NCBI RefSeq assembly: GCF_033958435.1 | Contig: NC_134138.1 | Span: 21,893,098-21,957,097 of the forward strand | Direction: 5' to 3' | Length of the DNA: 64,000 nucleotides | DNA from: Carettochelys insculpta | Taxonomy: Eukaryota > Chordata > Testudines > Carettochelyidae | Shown here: piece by piece, positions 1 to 64,000 of the stretch | How positions within the stretch are numbered: the first letter of the stretch is position 1 | Layout: each line of letters begins with the position of its first letter | Notes under the pieces: model-generated | Seen by the model: only the letters and a program-made list of their open reading frames with translations | Told to the model about the DNA's origin: nothing | The model's database searches: none | Translations under genes and position numbers: made by a program

Positions 1-405
1 AGCCCTGTAGTTTAAATGAATATTCTTGAGTGGAATTGGTAATGGGATACAGTGTCTGTTACTTTCAGGCTGCTGGTCTGCATCCACCCCGATTGGTAGT
101 AAATGAAGATTCCACTCTAATAAATGTTGAATGTGCTACATGCAGTGAGTTGGGTGGTCTATGCCTCGCTTCCAGCAAACAAGTGCCCTTGTCACAAAAC
201 CCATCAGCAAAACTGACACTAATTAGAAGCACCGTTTGCAGCTTTGGCAGAAAGGCCAGTGACTAAATAGGCTTCAGAAAATGAACTATGCCCTTAACTG
301 CTGGGGTTGTTTCCAGGGTCATGGAGTAAAGTTGCCACAGCTGCTGTTCAAGCTGTCCTGATCTCTGGATAACCAGGGCTGTCAGCCCAGCATCTTCCAG
401 GAAGC

Positions 406-436
<31 letters not shown>

Positions 437-2440
437 GAAGCAAAGCAATGTTAAAACAAGTGGTAGAGTTGGCTCTGAAACATCTGTGCTTCCTAGGGAA
501 GTAGTGATTAAAGTAGGCAGTGGTTGGGTATGTGTAGTGGAGTAGGCTTTTACGGGAAGCTCCATAAAACCTCAGGCCAGCAATAGAAACACTGTGAGCC
601 TGGTTCTCCATTCAGTACCTTTGGTAAGGCAGGGCTTAATCCAAAATGCACAGAAATCCAGGAGCATCCTGGATCAGTCTCATGTACCTGTGGAAAGTTA
701 ACCTGATGATCTATTACACGGAATTTTGTGCTCATCTAGTGGTGCAGTGCAGCCCTACAGCCTGCCTAGCCAGTCAGTGGGGAAATCCCCCAGGGTAGGG
801 GAAAACTCAGCCACAGAATCACCATAGTGGTTTCTAATCCAGCTCCTCGGTCTGGCAGGATCTGTCTGGCAGCATATGTGGCCTGGGGAAAGGGGGTTGT
901 TATCAATACTTCCTTATACCCAGCAGTTTCCTCATTCACAAGAATGGCCGCTTCAGGCTTCCATAATTCCCTCCAGGGACTGGCCTAGCCCCACAAGCTG
1001 AGGAACACAAGGATTGGCTTAAACCACCTTTGCAATTATTCCTTCCTGAGCAGCACTGTGCTTTGCCCAACCTCAGTGCAAAATCTGTCCCAAGGAAGCA
1101 TAAAAGCATGGCCACTCTGAGCTGGTATCATTTACACATGCTTTGAACACTCTGGTGTAGGCGTAAAGGACTCCACGAGCTCCAGAGCAGAAGAGACCCA
1201 TTCAGGTCCATGGTTTCAGAAGCAGCCTTTGTAGTTTCTCCATCTTTGGGTGCCTTGTTTGGGACACCCTGGATCTGATTGTCAGGGGGTGCTGTGAACA
1301 CCGACAGCACTTATTATTATTGAGAGATGTTCTGTTAGCTGTATCCCTACCCCCAATATTTGGTGGAGCTCCAGTAGTGGTCTGTCTTAATTTTGGCTTT
1401 GAGGGTCCAGTATGAAAACAACAGCTATCTCACTGAGCTCACCCTCAAGGTCATTACTTCATTATGTCTTCCAGATAGATACATTTTAAACTTCCCTTGT
1501 CACATTTTCTGCAGGCACAGTGGAAATGTACCCTGACGTGTTGTGGAATAGTGTACAGCGACAACAAACACAAGTAATACTCGGCGGTGTGTGGGAGCCA
1601 ATTAAGAGTGTGTCTTGCCTGCAAGGTCTATATCATTGCACCTTCAGAAGGGGTTGATTGTTAATGGGAATTACAATGGCACAGTATATTTAATGTTGCT
1701 GAGGGGGTGAGAGCACCTGTGAATGGTGTAGAGGTGTGTGAGCTGATGTGAACACATCTTTAACATAACTCAATACAATTTCCAAGGAATCCTGCTTCTG
1801 CAAACTGAATATGAAAATAGTTTGCTTAACCTTTGGGACTCCATGGGGGGGAAAAAACCTACTGCCTGCCAGAATCAAAGCCCCTCTGAGTTTGCTCTGT
1901 CACTTGTCAAACCAAATGCTCTCATTGCATGTAAATACTAATACTCCCACATTTCTGGCCCCTCCTGCTCTGGCTGCTGAGAGATGGTTGTTAACAAAGT
2001 GGGAGGAATATTTTTGACTGGCCTAATCTGGCTTCCACTGACATCGATGGCAAATTTCAAATGACGTTGGTAAGAGCAGGGTTGAGACCAATGCATTTAG
2101 ATGACCATCTATCTGCGTTGCTACTGCCCCAGATGTTTTTTCATGTAGCATTTGGATTTCAAGAGTTGCTTCTTGTTACACTTTGTCCTGTGGGATAAGA
2201 TCGTGAAGCTGTCAGATACTGTGGTCATAGGAGGCACATAGGTGTCTAAAAGAAAGAGACTTTTGTTCCATTATGCTATTGTGACATGTCGTCAAGCCTA
2301 ATTTTGCCCCACAAAATTATTAACAGTTCACAATAGTGATTGTTAAATAATGACAGCATCTTAAAGGCAAGTTGCTTTATTACTGTTGCTTTATTACTAT
2401 TTTATTATAGTTAATTAATATAAATTAATTGTGGTACATT
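1..2440. other. Unique-looking sequence, no gene recognised
   Basis: Apart from a 24-base A run at 413-436, I see no repeat family or coding exon here. Open frames are at most about 100 codons and have no recognisable domain. The A run could be a SINE tail, but the flanking sequence shows no SINE head that I can identify. The TA-rich stretch near 2390-2440 lies just before the CR1 tail. Confidence 0.5.
413..436. repeat. Poly(A) run
   Basis: A run of 24 consecutive A bases followed by GAAG. It creates artefactual poly-phenylalanine frames on the minus strand. It may be a simple repeat or an old retroposon tail. Confidence 0.85.
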
Positions 2441-2712
2441 AAGAACATAAGAACAGCCATACTGGGTCAGACCATAGGTCCATCAAACCCAGTATCCTGT
2501 CTTCTGACAGTGACCAATGCCAGGTGCCTCAGAGGGAATGAACAGAACAGGTAACCATCAAGTGATCAATTCCCTGTCGCCCATTTCCAGCCTCTGGCAA
2601 ACAGAGGTTAGGAATATCCTCCAGGCCCATCCTGGCTAGTAGCCATTGATAGGCCTATCCTCCATGAATTTTTCTAGTTCTTTTTTAAACTCTACCATAG
2701 TCTTAGCATTGA
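2441..2712 (-). mobile_element. CR1 LINE 3' end, truncated
   Basis: On the plus strand this begins AAGAACATAAGAACAGCCAT, which is the reverse complement of the end of the CR1 copy near 14124-14144. It continues through the conserved tail (tracts about ACTGGGTCAGACC, GGTGCCTCAGAGGGAATGA and AGCCATTGATAGGCC). This is the 3' untranslated tail of CR1, the main LINE of turtles, crocodilians and birds. The copy is 5'-truncated, as most CR1 copies are, and contains no useful coding sequence. Its identity rests on my knowledge of the family and on the second copy within the window. Confidence 0.85.
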
Positions 2713-3423
2713 GAGGTCTCATCTGAGATTGGGTCCTTGTTCTAAAAATAGTACAAACATATGGTAAGAGACTTTATGATCTGAATAGACAAGACAGGCA
2801 AAAAGAGGAAACTTTTTGTTTCTCCAGTTCACATTTGGGGATTCGGAGGGCAAGAGGTCCTGAGGCACAGAAAGCTAATGGCTTGGATTCAGTATGTGGA
2901 TAACTGGAGACACATGGGTCACCCTTGGGACTAAGAACTCAACTTTCAACAATATTTAGCCACCTTAACATGCAACTAATTGCATAGTGGGCTTTTCAAT
3001 AGTCCCTAGGCAGGTTAGCCACCTAACTCTCCTTGAAAACAATGGGTGTTAGTTACCAGGATAGGTGTTTTTGAATGCCCGACCCAGGGTTAGATTAATA
3101 AAGAAACATGGACGCTTAGAAAATAGCTTGCATTCACTAACACTGGGGAACGGCAGGAACTTGAGAATGGGATTCACAAAAGCCATCAGGTGAGGAGTGC
3201 CTTGCCTAATGGGGGATCCCAAGCTTGGAAGTGTATGCTAAGCCCTACCCCTGTTTTAAAATAGGGGCATAAGTCTAAATCTCCTTTGGGCTTCCCAGCT
3301 GCAAACCCTCTCTTGGTGCTAAGGGCCTATCCTGTTGGAGCAAGGTGTGGGAGGGGGAGGAGTACTAGGAGCTCCCATGTAATGTTTAGCCCTGTTGTTA
3401 TAGTACAAGGCTGGTCTGTGGGA

Positions 3424-3610
3424 AACTGTTCAAATCCTCCATCTCCCTGAGGTGGAGAAGGGATTTGAACAGAGATCTGCCACCTCTCGGTGACGATGCT
3501 CCATTGTGGCTAACTTTTAAAAGATCTATTGGTGCAGGAGGGCAGGCTCCCAGATCTTCCATCTGAGTGCTGTAACCAGTAGGCTATAGAATCATTCTCA
3601 TGCTAGCTTG
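3424..3610 (-). mobile_element. tRNA-like SINE with inverted B-box arms
   Basis: CTGTTCAAATCC (3426-3437) and GGATTTGAACAG (3461-3472) form a 12-bp perfect inverted repeat around a 23-base loop. The right arm is a reverse-strand RNA polymerase III B box (GTTCAAATCC type). Further right, minus-strand sequence near 3590-3540 resembles a tRNA-like A-box segment (CTACTGGTTACAGCACTCAG). I read this as an antisense tRNA-derived SINE of a type common in turtles. The exact ends are not visible. Confidence 0.55.
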
Positions 3611-5765
3611 CTGTCTGTGGGCCCACTATTGAAACTCTCGCACTGTGGATAAATATTGAAATACTTTGTTATGCTATTAACATGCAACTGATTCTGTAGC
3701 CAAGTAGTTAGAGCACACCCTTGCTCCAATGGTTTTCTTGTACTTATTTATCCACATTGGAACAGCTTAGAGAGATACAGAAGAGGGAAAGCTTTGATAA
3801 AGATGTGATATTTCAAAAGGAAATGGGGCATGCAAAGGAAATTATGTTGTGTAAGAGCTAAATGCCAACCAGATCTTACAGTAAAGAATTTTGTACAAAG
3901 TATACTAGAGGTCAACAGCCACCCACATCGGAATAGTCCATAGCCCAGAGGCTAGTATACATCTGCATGGGGGACATGAACTGGTCTTTTCCACATCCCT
4001 AACTACTGGCTAAAATGTATGAGGAAAGGGCTCCTTTCGTGGTTTTGTGTAAGTTTGTCTTTAGCGGATGGATCTGGTACGTGAGACCTGAGCATGCTAA
4101 TTGTGAATTGGATCCCACAGACAAGTTTGGTGGAGAAATATCTCCTCATCTGTGCATTGCTCTGGAACAGAAGTGTCAGGACTACCTGGCATGGGGTTTC
4201 AGTGAGTGTATGTAGAAGTAAAATCATCAGTACCTAGGGAACTTTCACTGCAAAAGTTCAGGAGCCAAGTGATTTTAGGTGCCTATATGAGATGGGAACA
4301 GCTGAGTGAGAGATCTGTGAATCCCAATAGGGCCTGAATCTGGGATTTAAGGACCTAAAATGGCTGTTAGGTGTGTAAGTTGTTTTGGTCTTCCACAAGG
4401 TGCCTATCTGCATCTGTTGGTACCTAAATACCTTTGAAAATCTGGTGCAAAGTTACTGCCCAAGTCACACAGGGGATCTGTGGCTGAGCTGGAAAATGAG
4501 CTTTTTCTTCTTTCCTTTACCTGAGTTTGTCCATCCCTACAAGAGAGTTACTAATATCAATGTACTGTACTGCCTGGAGGTGTCGCAAAATGAAATGGCA
4601 GGAAGTGTGCAAAGCACTTGGAGATTTCTGGATGAAAGGTGCAGTAGAAGGGCCAAGTATTATTGGAACTAAAACCATTTAAAAATAAAGAAGCTATAAA
4701 TCTACTTGCCAGTGTTGCATCCTGCTGTGGCTTGGTCGTTGGTCAGTGCCGCATCAATATGTTCATTATATAATATGCTGATGTAGAAATTGCCGGAAAT
4801 GATTGCTTCCTATTACATAACTGTTGCAGTGTGTGTGTGATGGGTCTTCTGATACTCAGGGGAACAGAAAGTGCAGTGCTCTTGCTTGCTAGTACACCAT
4901 GTGCAAAATTCTTTACTGTAGGATTTAGTTCACATTTAGCTGTGACACAACACCATTTCCTTAATGCGCCCCTTTTCGTTTTTGAAATCTCATGGCCTTG
5001 TTCATATTTTCCCTTCCAGTTACTTATCTAAAAACCTTACTGTTAACTTGAGTTTCAATGGCATTACATTAGGACAAGAGAGGAGAACAGGCCCTTGAGA
5101 TCCGATGTGTCAAGGAGCTGGTAATATGATAGTGAAACCTTACCACCAGTCCCCATGCAGCTCAAGTCCGTAGTGAATGAAAGTTGTTGCCAGCTGGTGG
5201 AATGACTGCCTTCTGTGCAAGGGATTTGAGGTGGTGGCTGGTGACACAACTTGTTTGCCAATATTCTTAACATTCAGTAATCACATGGCAGAGTATCATC
5301 AGTCCTAATAATTTGTGGTAGACCTCGTGTGTACTTTTTAAGGTGCGGCTGTGCTGCCATTGGAAGAGTGAAGGCAGCTTACCTAGACAATCTCAAATTC
5401 ACTTGAATCCAGCTAGTATGGCTCTCGGTAGCAGTGGAGAAACGGAGGTGCAGGCAGTACCGTGCTCCCAGTTAACACTGGCCTATTTAGCTTAGCTCAT
5501 TGCACTGAAGCTCATGCAAGCATATCTACATTACCTGCAGGCATGTCACTGACTGCAGAGTAGGTATACCTATATAACTACATCCAAGCTTGGTCTGAAG
5601 ATTTCAGAAGCTGGCTAATCCACCGCGTCATGCTTTGTTTTGCAAAAAGAGTTAGGCAGAGCTATACATTTAGAAAAACAAACTGCTTGCTACTTTTTTA
5701 TTAAATCATGTAAATCCTTTTTATTCCTATTGTGGATTTTATAAGCCTCACCTAAACTCACAGTC
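3611..5765. other. Unique-looking sequence
   Basis: I recognise no gene or repeat family with confidence. A short tRNA-like phrase near 3700-3722 (AGCCAAGTAGTTAGAGCACA) may be another decayed SINE head. Open frames are under 100 codons and have no domain. Confidence 0.4.
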
Positions 5766-8523: not shown

Positions 8524-8959
8524 GGCTGTGTCTACACTAGCGAAAAACTTCGAAATGGCCTTGCAAATGGCCATTTCGAAGTTTACTAATGAAGCGCTGA
8601 AATACATATTCAGCGCTTTATTAGCATGCAGGCAGCTGTGGCACTTCAAAATTGACACAGCTCGCCACCGCATGGCTCGTCCAGACGGGGCTCCTTTTCT
8701 AAAGGACCCCGCCTGCTTCGAAGTCCCCTTATTCCCATGAGCAGATGGGAATAAGGGGACTTCGAAGTAGGCAGGGTCCTTTCGAAAAGGAGCCCCGTCT
8801 GGACGAGCCACGTGGCCGCGAGCCGTGTCAATTTCGAAGTGCCGCGGCCGCCCGCATGCTAATGAGGTGCTGAATATGTATTTCAGCGCTTCATTAGTAA
8901 ACTTCGAAATGGCCATTTGCATGGCCATTTCGAAGTTTTTGCCTAGTGTAGACATAGCC
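8524..8959. mobile_element. Palindromic fold-back MITE
   Basis: The 436-bp element starts GGCTGTGTCTACACTAG and ends CTAGTGTAGACATAGCC. Its two halves are reverse complements over nearly the whole length, with the centre at 8741-8742: ATTCCCAT, a six-base spacer GAGCAG, then ATGGGAAT. Transcribed or single-stranded, it would form a hairpin of more than 200 bp. A perfect 3-bp duplication, CTT at 8521-8523 and 8960-8962, marks the insertion. A minus-strand frame of 211 codons (8425-9060) spans it and is a by-product of the palindrome. It keeps many TTCGAA sites, so it seems fairly young. Confidence 0.9.
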
Positions 8960-20215: not shown

Positions 20216-21302
20216 AGTATGTCTACACAGCAGCATTATTTCAAAACAAGCTACACAAAAAATGCATTTTAAAATAGCACTTAGCTATTTCAAAATAGAG
20301 TATCTGCACACATACACCCTATTTTGAAATAGCTTGGAGGTATGGCTACGTCTACACGTGCACCCAACTTCGAAATAGCTTATTTCGATGTTGCGACATC
20401 GAAATAGGCTATTTCGATGAATAACGTCTACACGTCCTCCAGGGCTGGCAACGTCGATGTTCAACTTCGACGTTGCTCAGCCCAACATCGAAATAGGCAC
20501 AGCGAGGGAACGTCTACACGGCAAAGTAGCACACATCGAAATAAGGGAGCCAGGCACAGCTGCAGACAGGGTCACGGGGCGGACTCAACAGCAAGTCGCT
20601 CCCTTAAAGGGCCCCTCCCAGACACACTTTCATTAAACAGTGCAAGATACACAGAGCCAACAACTAGTTGCAGACCCTGTATATGCAGCACGGACCCCCA
20701 GCTGCAGCAGCAGCAGCCAGAAGCCCTGGGCTAAGGGCTGCTGCCCATGGTGACCACAGAGCCCCGCAAGGGCTGGAGAGAGAGTATCTCTCAACCCCCC
20801 AGCTGATGGCCGCCATGGAGGACCCCGCTATTTCGATGTTGCGGGACGCGGATCGTCTACACGTCCCTACTTCGATGTTGAACGTCGAAGTAGGGCACTA
20901 TTCCCATCCCCTCATGGGGTTAGCGACTTCGACGTCTCGCCGCCTAACGTCGATTTCAACTTCGAAATAGCGCCCAACACGTGTAGACGTGACGGGCGCT
21001 ATGTCGAAGTTACTGCCGCTACTTCGAAGTAGCGTGCACGTGTAGACGCAGCCACTATGAATTGGATGTGCTATGGCTTATTTCAAAATAGTCTCTATTG
21101 CCTGTCCTAACAACACCTATTTCAACATAGCTATTTAGAAATAGGTGCTATTCCTTGTAGAAAGAGGTTTACTGATTTTGAAATAAACCGCCTGCTATTT
21201 CAAAATTATTTAAAAATAGCAGTTGTGTTGTGTAGGCACTAGGATAGTTATTTCAGAATAACAGCTGTTATTTCAAAATAGTTTTGCATGTAGACCTACC
21301 AT
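20216..21302. mobile_element. Old CpG-decayed MITE (middle layer of nest)
   Basis: The ends TATGTCTACACAGCAG and TTTTGCATGTAGACCTACC belong to the TGTCTACACT group. The body repeats TTTCAAAATAG and TTTTGAAATAG. These look like CpG-decayed forms of the TTCGAAATAG motif in the younger inner element. The outer element has CAG on both sides (20213-20215 and 21303-21305); removing one CAG restores its sequence as seen in the copy at 43027. The MITE is itself split by the element at 20344-21053. Confidence 0.85.
20344..21053 (-). mobile_element. Harbinger-type deletion derivative (inner layer of nest)
   Basis: The ends GGCTACGTCTACACGTGCAC and GTGCACGTGTAGACGCAGCC form a strong terminal inverted repeat. 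The left 350 bp match the reverse complement of the right end of the element at 40377-42856, and the right 300 bp match the reverse complement of its left end. It is therefore the same family in opposite orientation with the gene-bearing middle deleted. It still carries a remnant of the transposase N-terminus: 20693-20731 reads DPQLQQQQPEALG, like the MMDPQQQQQPEV start at 42540, with ATG replaced by ACG. The probable 3-bp duplication is imperfect (GTA left, CTA right). Confidence 0.9.
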
Positions 21303-40195: not shown

Positions 40196-40812
40196 AAGAG
40201 CAGCCGGTCCTGGGGCTGTGAACCTATGGGAGAAGCTGTGGGCTGCAGATTGCATGAAGGTTGAAAATCTACAGGATTAGGAAGGGCATTTGTCACACTT
40301 GTGAACCCAGCTATATTAAGGAACTGGCCCTAGGCCTCTGCTCCTTTGATCAATAGCGGTGTAACTGACACACTGTAGCCGCGTCTACACGTGCACGCTA
40401 CTTCGAAGTAGCGGCACCAACTTCGAAATAGCGCCCGTCACGGCTACACGTGTTGGGCGCTATTTCGAAGTTAACATCGACGTTAGGCGGCGAGACGTTG
40501 AAGCCACTAACCCCATGAGGGGATAGGAATAGCGCCCTACTTTGACGTTCAATGTCGAAGTAGGGAACGTGTAGTCGTTGTGCATCCCGCAACATCGAAA
40601 TTGCGGGGTCCTCCATGGCGGCCATCAGCTGAGGGATTGAGAGATGTTCTCTCCAGCCCCTGAGCTCAATGGTGGCCACGTGGAGCGGCCCCTTAAAGGT
40701 CCCCGCCCCCTCCTTTCCTGTGCAGGAAGCTGAGAGAGCGTGCAGGCAGCAGCAGTAACACGCGGCTAGCCTGCACGCTCCCCCGCAGCCACCCACACCC
40801 CCAGCTGACTCG

Positions 40813-41437
40813 ATGGCCTCTCAGCAGGCCCCCCAGCACCCCCAGGGGACCCGTCCCAAGGGGAGCCAGGGCTCACAGCCCAGCAGCCAGCCTGGGAAGC
40901 GGCAGCAGGGCCCCTCCTGGACGGAGGCCGAGCTTCAGGACCTGCTGGGGCTCTGGAGTGAGGAGGAGGTACTCCAGGTAATGGGGAGCAAGAGGCGGAA
41001 TGCGGATGCATTCACTCGGCTGGCTGAGGGTCTGGACGCCCGGGGTCACCCTGACCGCACTCTGGATCATGTCCGGAGTAAAGTGAAGGAGCTGCGGCAG
41101 GGTTACGCCTGGGCCCGGGATGCGTCTGGCTGATCTGGGGCTGCCCCCGTCACTTGCCCCTTTTACAAGGAGCTCAGGGACATCCTGGGCCCCCGGCACA
41201 CCTCCTCCCCTCTGGCCACTCTTGACACCTCGGCTGAGGAGCCCCATCAGGCCCCGGAGGCAAGCCCCGCACCCCGGGGACCCCCCCAGGAGCCCACCCC
41301 CGGGGCACTGGAGCAGGAGGAGGAGGAGGTGGACTCCTCTTCCAGTGACATCGGGCTCCAAATAATGATGCCGTCCCGGAGCTCCAGCCAGACGTCCGCC
41401 CACTGGGTGTTCCCCGACCGTGGGAGTGGACCGTCAG
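40813..41437 (+). pseudogene. Myb/SANT-like DNA-binding protein, exon 1
   Basis: The frame begins MASQQAPQHPQGTR and enters a Myb/SANT-like DNA-binding domain at about residues 35-100. Markers are SWTEAELQDLLGLWSEEEV, then RRNADAFTRLAEGLDARG, then RTLDHVRSKVKELRQGYAWA. An in-frame TGA (41131-41133) follows; it looks like a decayed CGA because reading continues in frame with CPFYKELRDILG, the usual end of this domain, then an acidic, serine- and proline-rich linker. The exon ends at a good splice donor, CAG|GTATGT (41437/41438). In PIF/Harbinger elements this partner protein recruits the transposase to DNA and to the nucleus. Confidence 0.85.
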
Positions 41438-41586
41438 GTATGTACCCCCCCTGGTGCACACCCCTGGGGTTGAGGGGTGGGGGTAATAGATATGACCAGG
41501 GCCCTCCACATGCCCAGATGACCATGGCCCCAAGGACAGCAGTGGCATGTCCCTCAGAAGAGTGCATCAGCCCCTGCCCCCCGCAG

Positions 41587-41738
41587 CACGACAGTACCAT
41601 GCCCCATCCCCAGGGCTTGGGGGAGCGGAACCTCTAGGGTCCCCCCGGGGGGAGGGGGTGGGACACCCAGCAGCAGCAGCAGCAGCAGCTGCAGCATGTG
41701 ATGGAGTGGGGGGAGTGCAAATGCGAGACTCAGGCTAG
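41587..41738 (+). pseudogene. Possible exon 2 of the Myb-like gene
   Basis: A CCCCTGCCCCCCGCAG acceptor (ending 41586) would join in phase with the exon ending at 41437. It would give a tail containing RQYHAPSPGLGG and a poly-alanine run from (GCA)n, ending at TAG (41736-41738). The acceptor fits consensus, but the product is low complexity and other frames are open, so the exon is uncertain. Confidence 0.35.
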
Positions 41739-41877
41739 ATATGAGAAACAAGCTGAATAGCTCCCAGTGGCTACGGATGATCCTGGGGCTACAACTGGCA
41801 GGTTACACCTCTGCCCTGAGCAAAAAGGAGGGACGAGCCGAGCTGGGTTTGAATCGGGGGTGGCAGTTAGAGGCTAG

Positions 41878-41975
41878 GGGAGAGCACCAATGAGGGGTGA
41901 GCAGGGCACATGGGAGAGCACCAATGGGAGAGGCACATGGGAGAGCACCAATGAGGGGTGAGCAGGGTGAGTGTG
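41878..41975. repeat. Short direct repeats inside the Harbinger element
   Basis: The phrases GGGAGAGCACCAATGAGGGG and GGGAGAGCACCAATGGGAG recur three to four times in about 95 bp. They lie where the transposase intron is interrupted, close to the apparent deletion of the catalytic region. Confidence 0.8.
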
Positions 41976-42053
41976 GCCCTCCCCTGCCGGGGCCCCCCTC
42001 CCCTCCCCTGCCCTCCCAGAGCTGCCTCCCCCTCCCCCCGTGTGTCCTCTTAC

Positions 42054-42540
42054 CTCCATGAGGACAGCCCCGACGGTGGCCTTGCCAGCGCCAAACTGCT
42101 GGCCCATGGATCGGTAGCTGTCTGGAGTGGCCAGCTTCCAGACAGCGATGCCGACCCGTTTCTCCACACTGAGGGCATGCCGTATGGCGGTGTCCTGGTG
42201 CCTGAGTGCGGGGGTGAGCCACTGGCATAGCTCCAGAAATGTCTGCCGGCTCATGCGAAAGTTCCTGAGCCAGCGGCTGTCATCCCACTCTCCCAGCACC
42301 AGCTGCTCCCACCAGTCGGTGCTGGTGGGGTAGCTCCACAGCCGGTGGTGTATGAGGCGGAGGGGGGGAGCGGGGTGCTGCAGGGTTGGGGGTTGCGTCC
42401 TCCTCCCCTGCGGGCAGCTCCTCCTCTGTGGCAAGGAGGTGCTCAGCTGCCTCCTGCATGGCACGGAGCAGGGCGAGCACTGCTCCTGCAGGGGCAGCTG
42501 GGTGGACCTCTGGCTGCTGCTGCTGCTGGGGGTCCATCAT
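42054..42540 (-). pseudogene. HARBI1-like transposase, 5' exon only
   Basis: The protein starts MMDPQQQQQPEV, then an acidic low-complexity leader. A frameshift at the G7 run 42362-42368 moves the frame to the conserved N-terminal domain: LWSYPTSTDWWEQLVLGEWD, then FRMSRQTFLELCQWLTPAL, then ALSVEKRVGIAVWKLATPDS, and YRSMGQQFGAGKATVGAVLM. This is the helix-turn-helix-containing region of HARBI1-like PIF/Harbinger transposases, which run to about 350 residues. The exon ends at a splice donor, ATGGAG|GTAAGAG (42054/42053). The DDE catalytic exon that should follow is absent. Confidence 0.85.
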
Positions 42541-43026
42541 GACTGCGTTGCTCGAGGTGTGCGTGCCTATGGCTCTGCAGACCGCATGCTGTGCAGGCTG
42601 CGTGTGTCTGGGAGGGGCCCTTTAAGGGAGTGGCTAGCTGTTGCCCCAGAAGTGCTAGTCCACCCTGTGACCCTGTCTGCAGCTGTGCCTGGCACCCTTA
42701 TTTCAATGTGTGCTACTTTGGCATGTAGACGTTCCCTTGCAGCGCCTATTTCCATGTGGTGCTGCCCAACATCGACGTTGCCAGCCCTGGAGGACGTGTA
42801 GACGCTATTAATCGAAATAGCCTATTTCGATGTAGCGTGCACGTGTAGATGTAGCTTGTAGGTGCTATTCTTCTGCTGGTCACCCTGTTCAGAATATTAA
42901 ATAGCTGTAGGACTTTGGCCAAAAGTTGAGCAACGTCTTGTTGGCCAATATAGTAAACAGTGTCTGTTCTTCAATGCCTCCCTTTTTATCAGGTCACATT
43001 TCCTTTACATACATTCTGGAGGACTA

Positions 43027-63847: not shown

Positions 63848-64000
63848 GGCTACGTCTACACGTGCACCCTACATCGAAGTAGCTTATTTCGATGTTGCGA
63901 CATCGAAATAGGCTATTTCGATGAATAACGTCTACACGTCCTCCAGGGCCGGCAACGTCGATGTTCAACTTCGACGTTGCGCAGCCCAACATCGAAATAG
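63848..64000 (-). mobile_element. Harbinger-family copy cut by the window edge
   Basis: Starts GGCTACGTCTACACGTGCAC and follows the left 150 bp of the copy at 20344 almost base for base (CTATTTCGATGAATAACGTC, CGTCGATGTTCAACTTCGAC). The copy continues beyond base 64000. Orientation is as in the 20344 copy. The left flank reads CTA. Confidence 0.9.

Follow-up and report, generated by a model that had tools for sequence, protein, structure and literature searches.

The window analysed here, a stretch of 64,000 nucleotides of Carettochelys insculpta DNA, contains a 2.48-kb insertion with parts of two genes. Is it a single element, what has it lost, and is it a step on the path from a full transposon to a MITE, as had been proposed in an earlier sequence-only reading? 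We conclude that it is very probably a dead and non-autonomous copy, derived by internal deletion from a two-gene transposon of 4.5 kb that belongs to the Harbinger superfamily (PHIS) in Carettochelys insculpta. The earlier interpretation is partly supported, in that the anatomy was correct, while the evolutionary story needs changing. The features of the element and of related sequences in the window are collected in Table 1.

Table 1. Positions of the element, its parts and its relatives in the 64,000-nucleotide window.
Feature	Position	Strand	Basis or remark
Internally deleted Harbinger-superfamily element, 2,480 bp	40377..42856	+	Inverted ends, sibling alignment, target site duplication
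Left target half-site CACAC	40369..40373	n/a	Symmetric site comparison
Left target site duplication TGT, 3 bp	40374..40376	n/a	
Left TIR	40377..40411	+	35 nt; 86% complementary to right TIR
Myb/SANT-like exon 1	40813..41437	+	ATG at 40813; PF13837 match about 40915-41118
Premature TGA in Myb frame	41131..41133	+	Sole stop
Myb exon 1 splice donor GTATGT	41438..41443	+	TCAG|GTATGT at 41437/41438; P0121/P0122 peptide junction agrees
Myb intron remnant, ending at left breakpoint	41438..41881	+	
Deletion junction, three head-to-tail right-flank units	41878..41967	n/a	
Transposase intron remnant, starting at right breakpoint	41927..42053	-	Acceptor and DDE exon deleted
Transposase exon 1 splice donor GTAAGA	42048..42053	-	GAG|GTAAGA at 42054/42053; P0001, P0003, P0105 agree
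HARBI1-like transposase exon 1, 91 conserved open codons	42054..42326	-	Frame open 41877-42536
Right TIR, short form without the 29-bp block	42822..42856	-	35 nt
Right target site duplication TGT, 3 bp	42857..42859	n/a	
Right target half-site AGGTG	42860..42864	n/a	Symmetric site comparison
710-bp MITE of the same family	20344..21053	-	L044 positions 2-314, 4143-4168, 4235-4530
Right-end segment of another family copy, cut by the window end	63848..64000	-	

The two gene fragments of the element are convergent, with the Myb gene on the + strand and the transposase gene on the - strand. A Pfam search of the Myb segment gave PF13837 with E 1.6e-08, and the part of the segment 3' of the TGA gave no Pfam match. 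The transposase exon 1 aligns over 91/91 residues, with 87% identity and no stop, to the NCBI Carettochelys predicted model P0003; the exon has no Pfam match of its own up to E 10. Thus, the Myb/SANT-like exon with its single premature TGA, and the convergent HARBI1-like 5' exon that stops at a splice donor, are present as first described. Rfam gave zero matches at gathering score within the window. A sequence search for the solved structure of a relative gave only two matches, with E 0.61 and 0.71, both to unrelated proteins. The right subterminal region varies among copies L039-L058, where a 29-bp block is present or absent; the gap lies after window position 42821.

The genome searched comprises 2.18 Gb in 134 contigs; the published description of the Carettochelys insculpta assembly, in the portion consulted, gives 14.23% for DNA elements (PMC10960847). 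Among the best 40 left-half matches examined, all 39 others stop at or before element position 1505, and the right-half matches mostly start near position 1551. Twenty sibling copies were fetched for comparison. In 19 of them, the left half is followed by about 2 kb of extra sequence and then by the right half, giving full copies of 4,458-4,836 bp (n = 19); in the remaining one, L048, the right half is absent within the 6,001 bp fetched. The middle of all 19 full copies encodes the DDE exon, and the window copy has no match to this exon. The catalytic exon is therefore gone from the window copy, and the full-length copies that the earlier reading had proposed to search for do hold it between the same ends.

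The sibling genes show what the window copy once encoded. PF13359 (DDE_Tnp_4) was found in all three sibling transposase frames tested, two of them complete (E 1.2e-37 and 1.8e-36) and one partial, and PF13837 in both sibling Myb frames tested. Exon 1 of the transposase has an open core in a single unbroken alignment in 16/19 full copies, and exon 2 is open likewise, over at least 250 of 252 residues, in 11/19. Both genes have identical order and orientation in all 19 siblings. The full copies are thus shown to carry a Myb/SANT gene and a DDE_Tnp_4 gene on opposite strands, of two exons each, with the 3' exons meeting mid-element. The closest proteins from outside Carettochelys, among the best 120 of 657 matches, are turtle HARBI1-like proteins, about 54% identical across 84% of the query.

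The genes had been thought to look spliced. In the NCBI predicted models P0001, P0003, and P0105, transposase exon 1 (..VLME) is joined to exon 2 (VVRAIN..), and in P0121 and P0122, Myb exon 1 is joined to exon 2 (AAPSEGP). Splicing of both genes is thus supported by predicted gene models of sibling copies. Siblings differ in whether the glutamine-rich MMDP start shares a reading frame with the conserved TSTDWW part, so any start assigned to the transposase protein is provisional.

In addition, predicted models elsewhere in the genome (P0046, P0069, P0116, and P0002) join other upstream exons to the DDE exon, all through one phase-0 acceptor (VVR..). Two such models are named hepatic leukemia factor isoform X1 and patatin-like phospholipase domain-containing protein 4 isoform X1, and the latter has both Patatin and DDE_Tnp_4 domains. 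These models may reflect recurrent capture of the transposase, or splicing into adjacent copies.

Alignment of the window copy with the siblings breaks off at 41881 and is taken up again at 41927, corresponding to positions 1510 and 3555 of L044. These breakpoints fall within the interval, about 41740 to 42053, where the missing segment had been placed. The copy has lost about 2.04 kb, from the Myb intron to the transposase intron, and with it both 3' exons and the catalytic domain; both ends and both splice donors are retained. The join consists of a right-flank piece of 27-34 bp present in three tandem copies. The tandem array was confirmed, and the same unit is single in all 19 full copies. 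GGGA is common to both sides of the join.

A 34-base pattern for the window junction, with up to 3 mismatches allowed, has one match in the genome. A 24-base pattern gives two additional matches, each with 3 mismatches, and neither was accepted as a second junction: one has only 22 matching bases, the other is without homology, and their flanks do not match the element. With no more than 3 mismatches allowed over 34 or 24 bases, these patterns could miss a second copy that has decayed badly. With the junction found once, we reject the idea that the window copy is a member of an amplified deletion family.

Filler copied from a flank is a possible residue of incomplete gap repair. We suggest that the deletion may stem from a break, left by excision or arising at replication, that was repaired incompletely; the break ends would have been joined at the GGGA microhomology while the right flank was copied repeatedly. 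The deletion may have occurred in place or one hop before the present insertion. Abortive gap repair is also the account of PIF/Harbinger-like deletion derivatives in Medicago, in the part of that study consulted (PMC2213677). Against the repair reading, the mechanism is read from a single junction, and slippage of replication between GGGA repeats, with tandem expansion later, would give a similar join. After the deletion, the window copy could presumably move solely by means of the proteins of other copies, and it seems to have left no amplified progeny.

The window copy groups with L039, L040, L043, L044, and L057 in both the left-half tree (support 0.989) and the right-half tree (support 0.997). 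Since both halves fall in one sibling subclade, both belong to one insertion. The terminal branches of the window copy are 0.046 and 0.040, similar to those of the full-length copies, which have a median pairwise K2P of 0.085 (range 0.056-0.101, n = 19). Because these branches are as long as those of the full copies, they bear no mark of a recent or transitional copy. The window copy is old, as are its siblings.

A MITE of the same family lies in the window itself (Table 1), and its internal junction recurs in a MITE within L058. A pattern for this MITE junction has 39,883 matches in the genome at up to 3 mismatches, with 0 for the control. None of the 19 full copies has this junction (15 or more mismatches of 39), and neither of the two MITE copies examined contains the filler unit of the window copy (5 or more mismatches of 13). 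The left-end pattern has 42,338 genome matches, the transposase exon 1 pattern 6,927, and the DDE exon pattern 7,054, with 0 for the control in each case. The near-equal counts for exon 1 and the DDE exon suggest that the latter is still present in most gene-bearing copies. Multiplying the counts by 0.7 and 4.5 kb gives very roughly 60 Mb, a figure to be taken as a rough ceiling, since many copies will be incomplete.

The earlier claim of a step from transposon to MITE is not supported by these counts. Since the MITE junction differs from the window junction, the abundant MITE traces to another deletion. At 2.48 kb, with coding exons present and a junction found once, the window copy is not itself a MITE. 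Could its deletion nevertheless be a true intermediate, whose further deletion yielded the family MITE? The coordinates would permit this, because the MITE deletion (L044 about 314-4143) encloses the window deletion (1510-3555), which makes nesting possible. However, one genome match for the window junction stands against nearly forty thousand for that of the MITE, the terminal branches resemble those of full-length copies, and no full copy has the MITE junction. The window filler is also missing from the two MITEs, although a later deletion could have erased it. We consider an intermediate very unlikely. The window copy appears to be an isolated dead end, and one genome thus shows two outcomes of a like internal deletion, with about 40,000 junction matches in one case and a single match in the other.

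Another element, of about 436 bp and palindromic, was seen at window positions 8524-8959, with ends GGCTGTGTCTACAC..GTGTAGACATAGCC and TTCGAAAT motifs. It is apparently from a different MITE family with similar ends.

It is even less likely that the window copy is in use through splicing of its two 5' exons, each with a donor, to host exons downstream. In favour are the intact donors, the loss of both 3' exons, and the reverse type of capture shown by the models elsewhere that join other exons to the DDE exon; however, the Myb frame contains a stop, and the divergence of the copy is similar to that of its siblings. Least credible of all, and in our opinion negligible, is that two nested or adjacent insertions mimic one element: the fragments are indeed non-overlapping and on opposite strands, but there is a single pair of matching ends with a single duplication, all 19 siblings carry both genes with order and orientation kept, no full-ended copy bearing only one gene is found among the 19 full copies, and the two halves share a subclade, their divergences being correlated among 19 copies (rank correlation 0.69, p 0.001). 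Neither result named as fatal to the earlier description was obtained: copies with the DDE exon do exist, and the fragments do not come from different insertions. The single 2.48-kb insertion, bounded by 35-nt inverted ends and flanked by TGT on either side, stands. An internally deleted copy of the two-gene transposon remains our reading of this locus.

The window copy is in itself ordinary. The feature that deserves follow-up is one of the family, a loose duplication inside a symmetric target. Target sites were sought for 48 copies, namely the window copy, the 19 full copies, and 28 others identified by their right end; L048, having no right half, had been excluded beforehand. Both ends were located in 35 of the 48, and 13 of the 28 right-end copies were dropped, as their left end was not in the 551-bp piece. 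Three base pairs are shared beside the ends in 29/35 copies, and the other 6 differ by one base, which excludes chance as the source of the element ends. None of the 29 extends to 4 bp. The middle base of the shared 3 bp is A or T in 24/29.

A second sample comprised 40 other left ends, namely the exact 36-mer matches that come first on C1 (of the 42,338), for which the adjoining 3 bp were assumed to be the duplication. TWA accounts for 6/29 of the complete sites and 0/40 of these other left ends, TNA for 7/29 and 1/40 (with the exact C|TNA|G in 2/29), ANT for 3/29 and 3/40, and CWG for 0/29 and 1/40. None of the four fits 19 of the 29 complete sites. The TGT duplication of the window copy is real; it is not the TWA expected of PIF/Harbinger, and it fits the looser rule of its family.

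Around the loose, A/T-rich 3-bp duplication, the complete sites show the symmetric pattern CACAY|NWN|RTGTG. W is found at -2 in 29/29 sites (p 1.6e-07), Y at -1 in 26/29 (p 7.5e-06), R at +3 in 29/29 (p 1.9e-09), and G at +5 in 21/29 (p 3.5e-09), all p values being uncorrected. When the window site, GACACAC-TGT-AGGTGCT, is scored with itself left out, its score is reached by 0.03% of window 17-mers. The 40 left ends have C at -1 in 29/40, A or T at -2 in 37/40, and C at -3 in 23/40. Position -5 has 15 C and 15 G and is weaker than in the 29 sites. A is present at the first and at the third of the 3 bases in 22/40 each (p 5.7e-04), so the 3-bp interval is loose rather than free. The share of TWA also differs between the two samples. 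Three of the left ends, L088-L090 (C1:5.97-6.23 Mb), have one common flank, leaving 38 distinct among the 40; this suggests local duplication of one insertion.

We propose, tentatively, that the family represents a further PHIS target class, in which a symmetric site of about 13 bp is recognised mainly outside a loosely constrained 3-bp cut interval. The MITE in the window shows no 3-bp duplication by eye (TAT on the left, ACT on the right). This, together with the A-rich interval, the weak position -5, and the TWA discrepancy, lowered our estimate for a further class from just short of even to slightly below that. If the proposal is confirmed, the sequence of the duplication and the recognition of the target would be separable in the PHIS superfamily. 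The zebrafish Harbinger3N element reportedly has a palindromic target that, like that of the turtle family, is symmetric around the duplication.

How does the family compare with the known groups? The DDE_Tnp_4 transposase, present in the siblings and with its exon deleted in the window, and the Myb/SANT second gene place it in the PHIS superfamily. In the portion of the PHIS survey consulted, transposons are sorted by their target bases, with TWA, AT, none, ANT, CWG, and C|TNA|G as the group targets, and fixed bases, within or next to the duplication, define those groups that produce one (PMC4482050). None of these six classes, as given there, fits the turtle family, which breaks each of the rules given yet shows a strong symmetric preference just outside the duplication. 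The literature searched, which comprised titles, abstract openings, and excerpts outside Repbase and most subscription papers, yielded no description of a rule combining a loose duplication with a symmetric site.

The likeness to the PIF/Harbinger group, as described in the same portion of the survey, includes the DDE transposase with a separate Myb/SANT protein, the 3-bp duplication, a TIR length inside the range of 5-1042 bp, and a group average of about 4.1 kb (PMC4482050). The first base of the TIR is usually A or G in that group, and the turtle left ends are AGCC or AG variants in 35/35. However, PIF/Harbinger sensu stricto is defined there by TWA, found in 6/29 and 0/40 of the turtle sites and replaced by TGT in the window (PMC4482050). 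NuwaII has the same two kinds of genes, C and G beside the duplication, TIRs of 13-46 bp, and an average of about 4.7 kb, all similar to the turtle family, and is reported from one turtle in the pages consulted (PMC4482050). By contrast, its TIRs mostly start with GG, while those of the turtle family mostly start with AG, and its C|TNA|G rule is found exactly in only 2/29 (TNA in 7/29 and 1/40). NuwaI is alike in coding capacity and differs in its CWG target (0/29 and 1/40), and Pangu differs in its ANT target (3/29 and 3/40), according to the same extract (PMC4482050).

The internal deletion also has parallels. PIF/Harbinger-like elements of Medicago, in the part of the report consulted, comprise core elements, simple internal-deletion derivatives, and MITE-sized members, with tandem repeats tied to rearrangement, although they are plant elements with TTA/TAA duplications (PMC2213677). 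Closer in host, Harbinger-Snek of sea kraits is likewise a reptile Harbinger; as far as the excerpt of that study goes, it includes variants in which a deletion has spared one of the two genes, as well as short non-autonomous copies that share its ends (PMC8437027).
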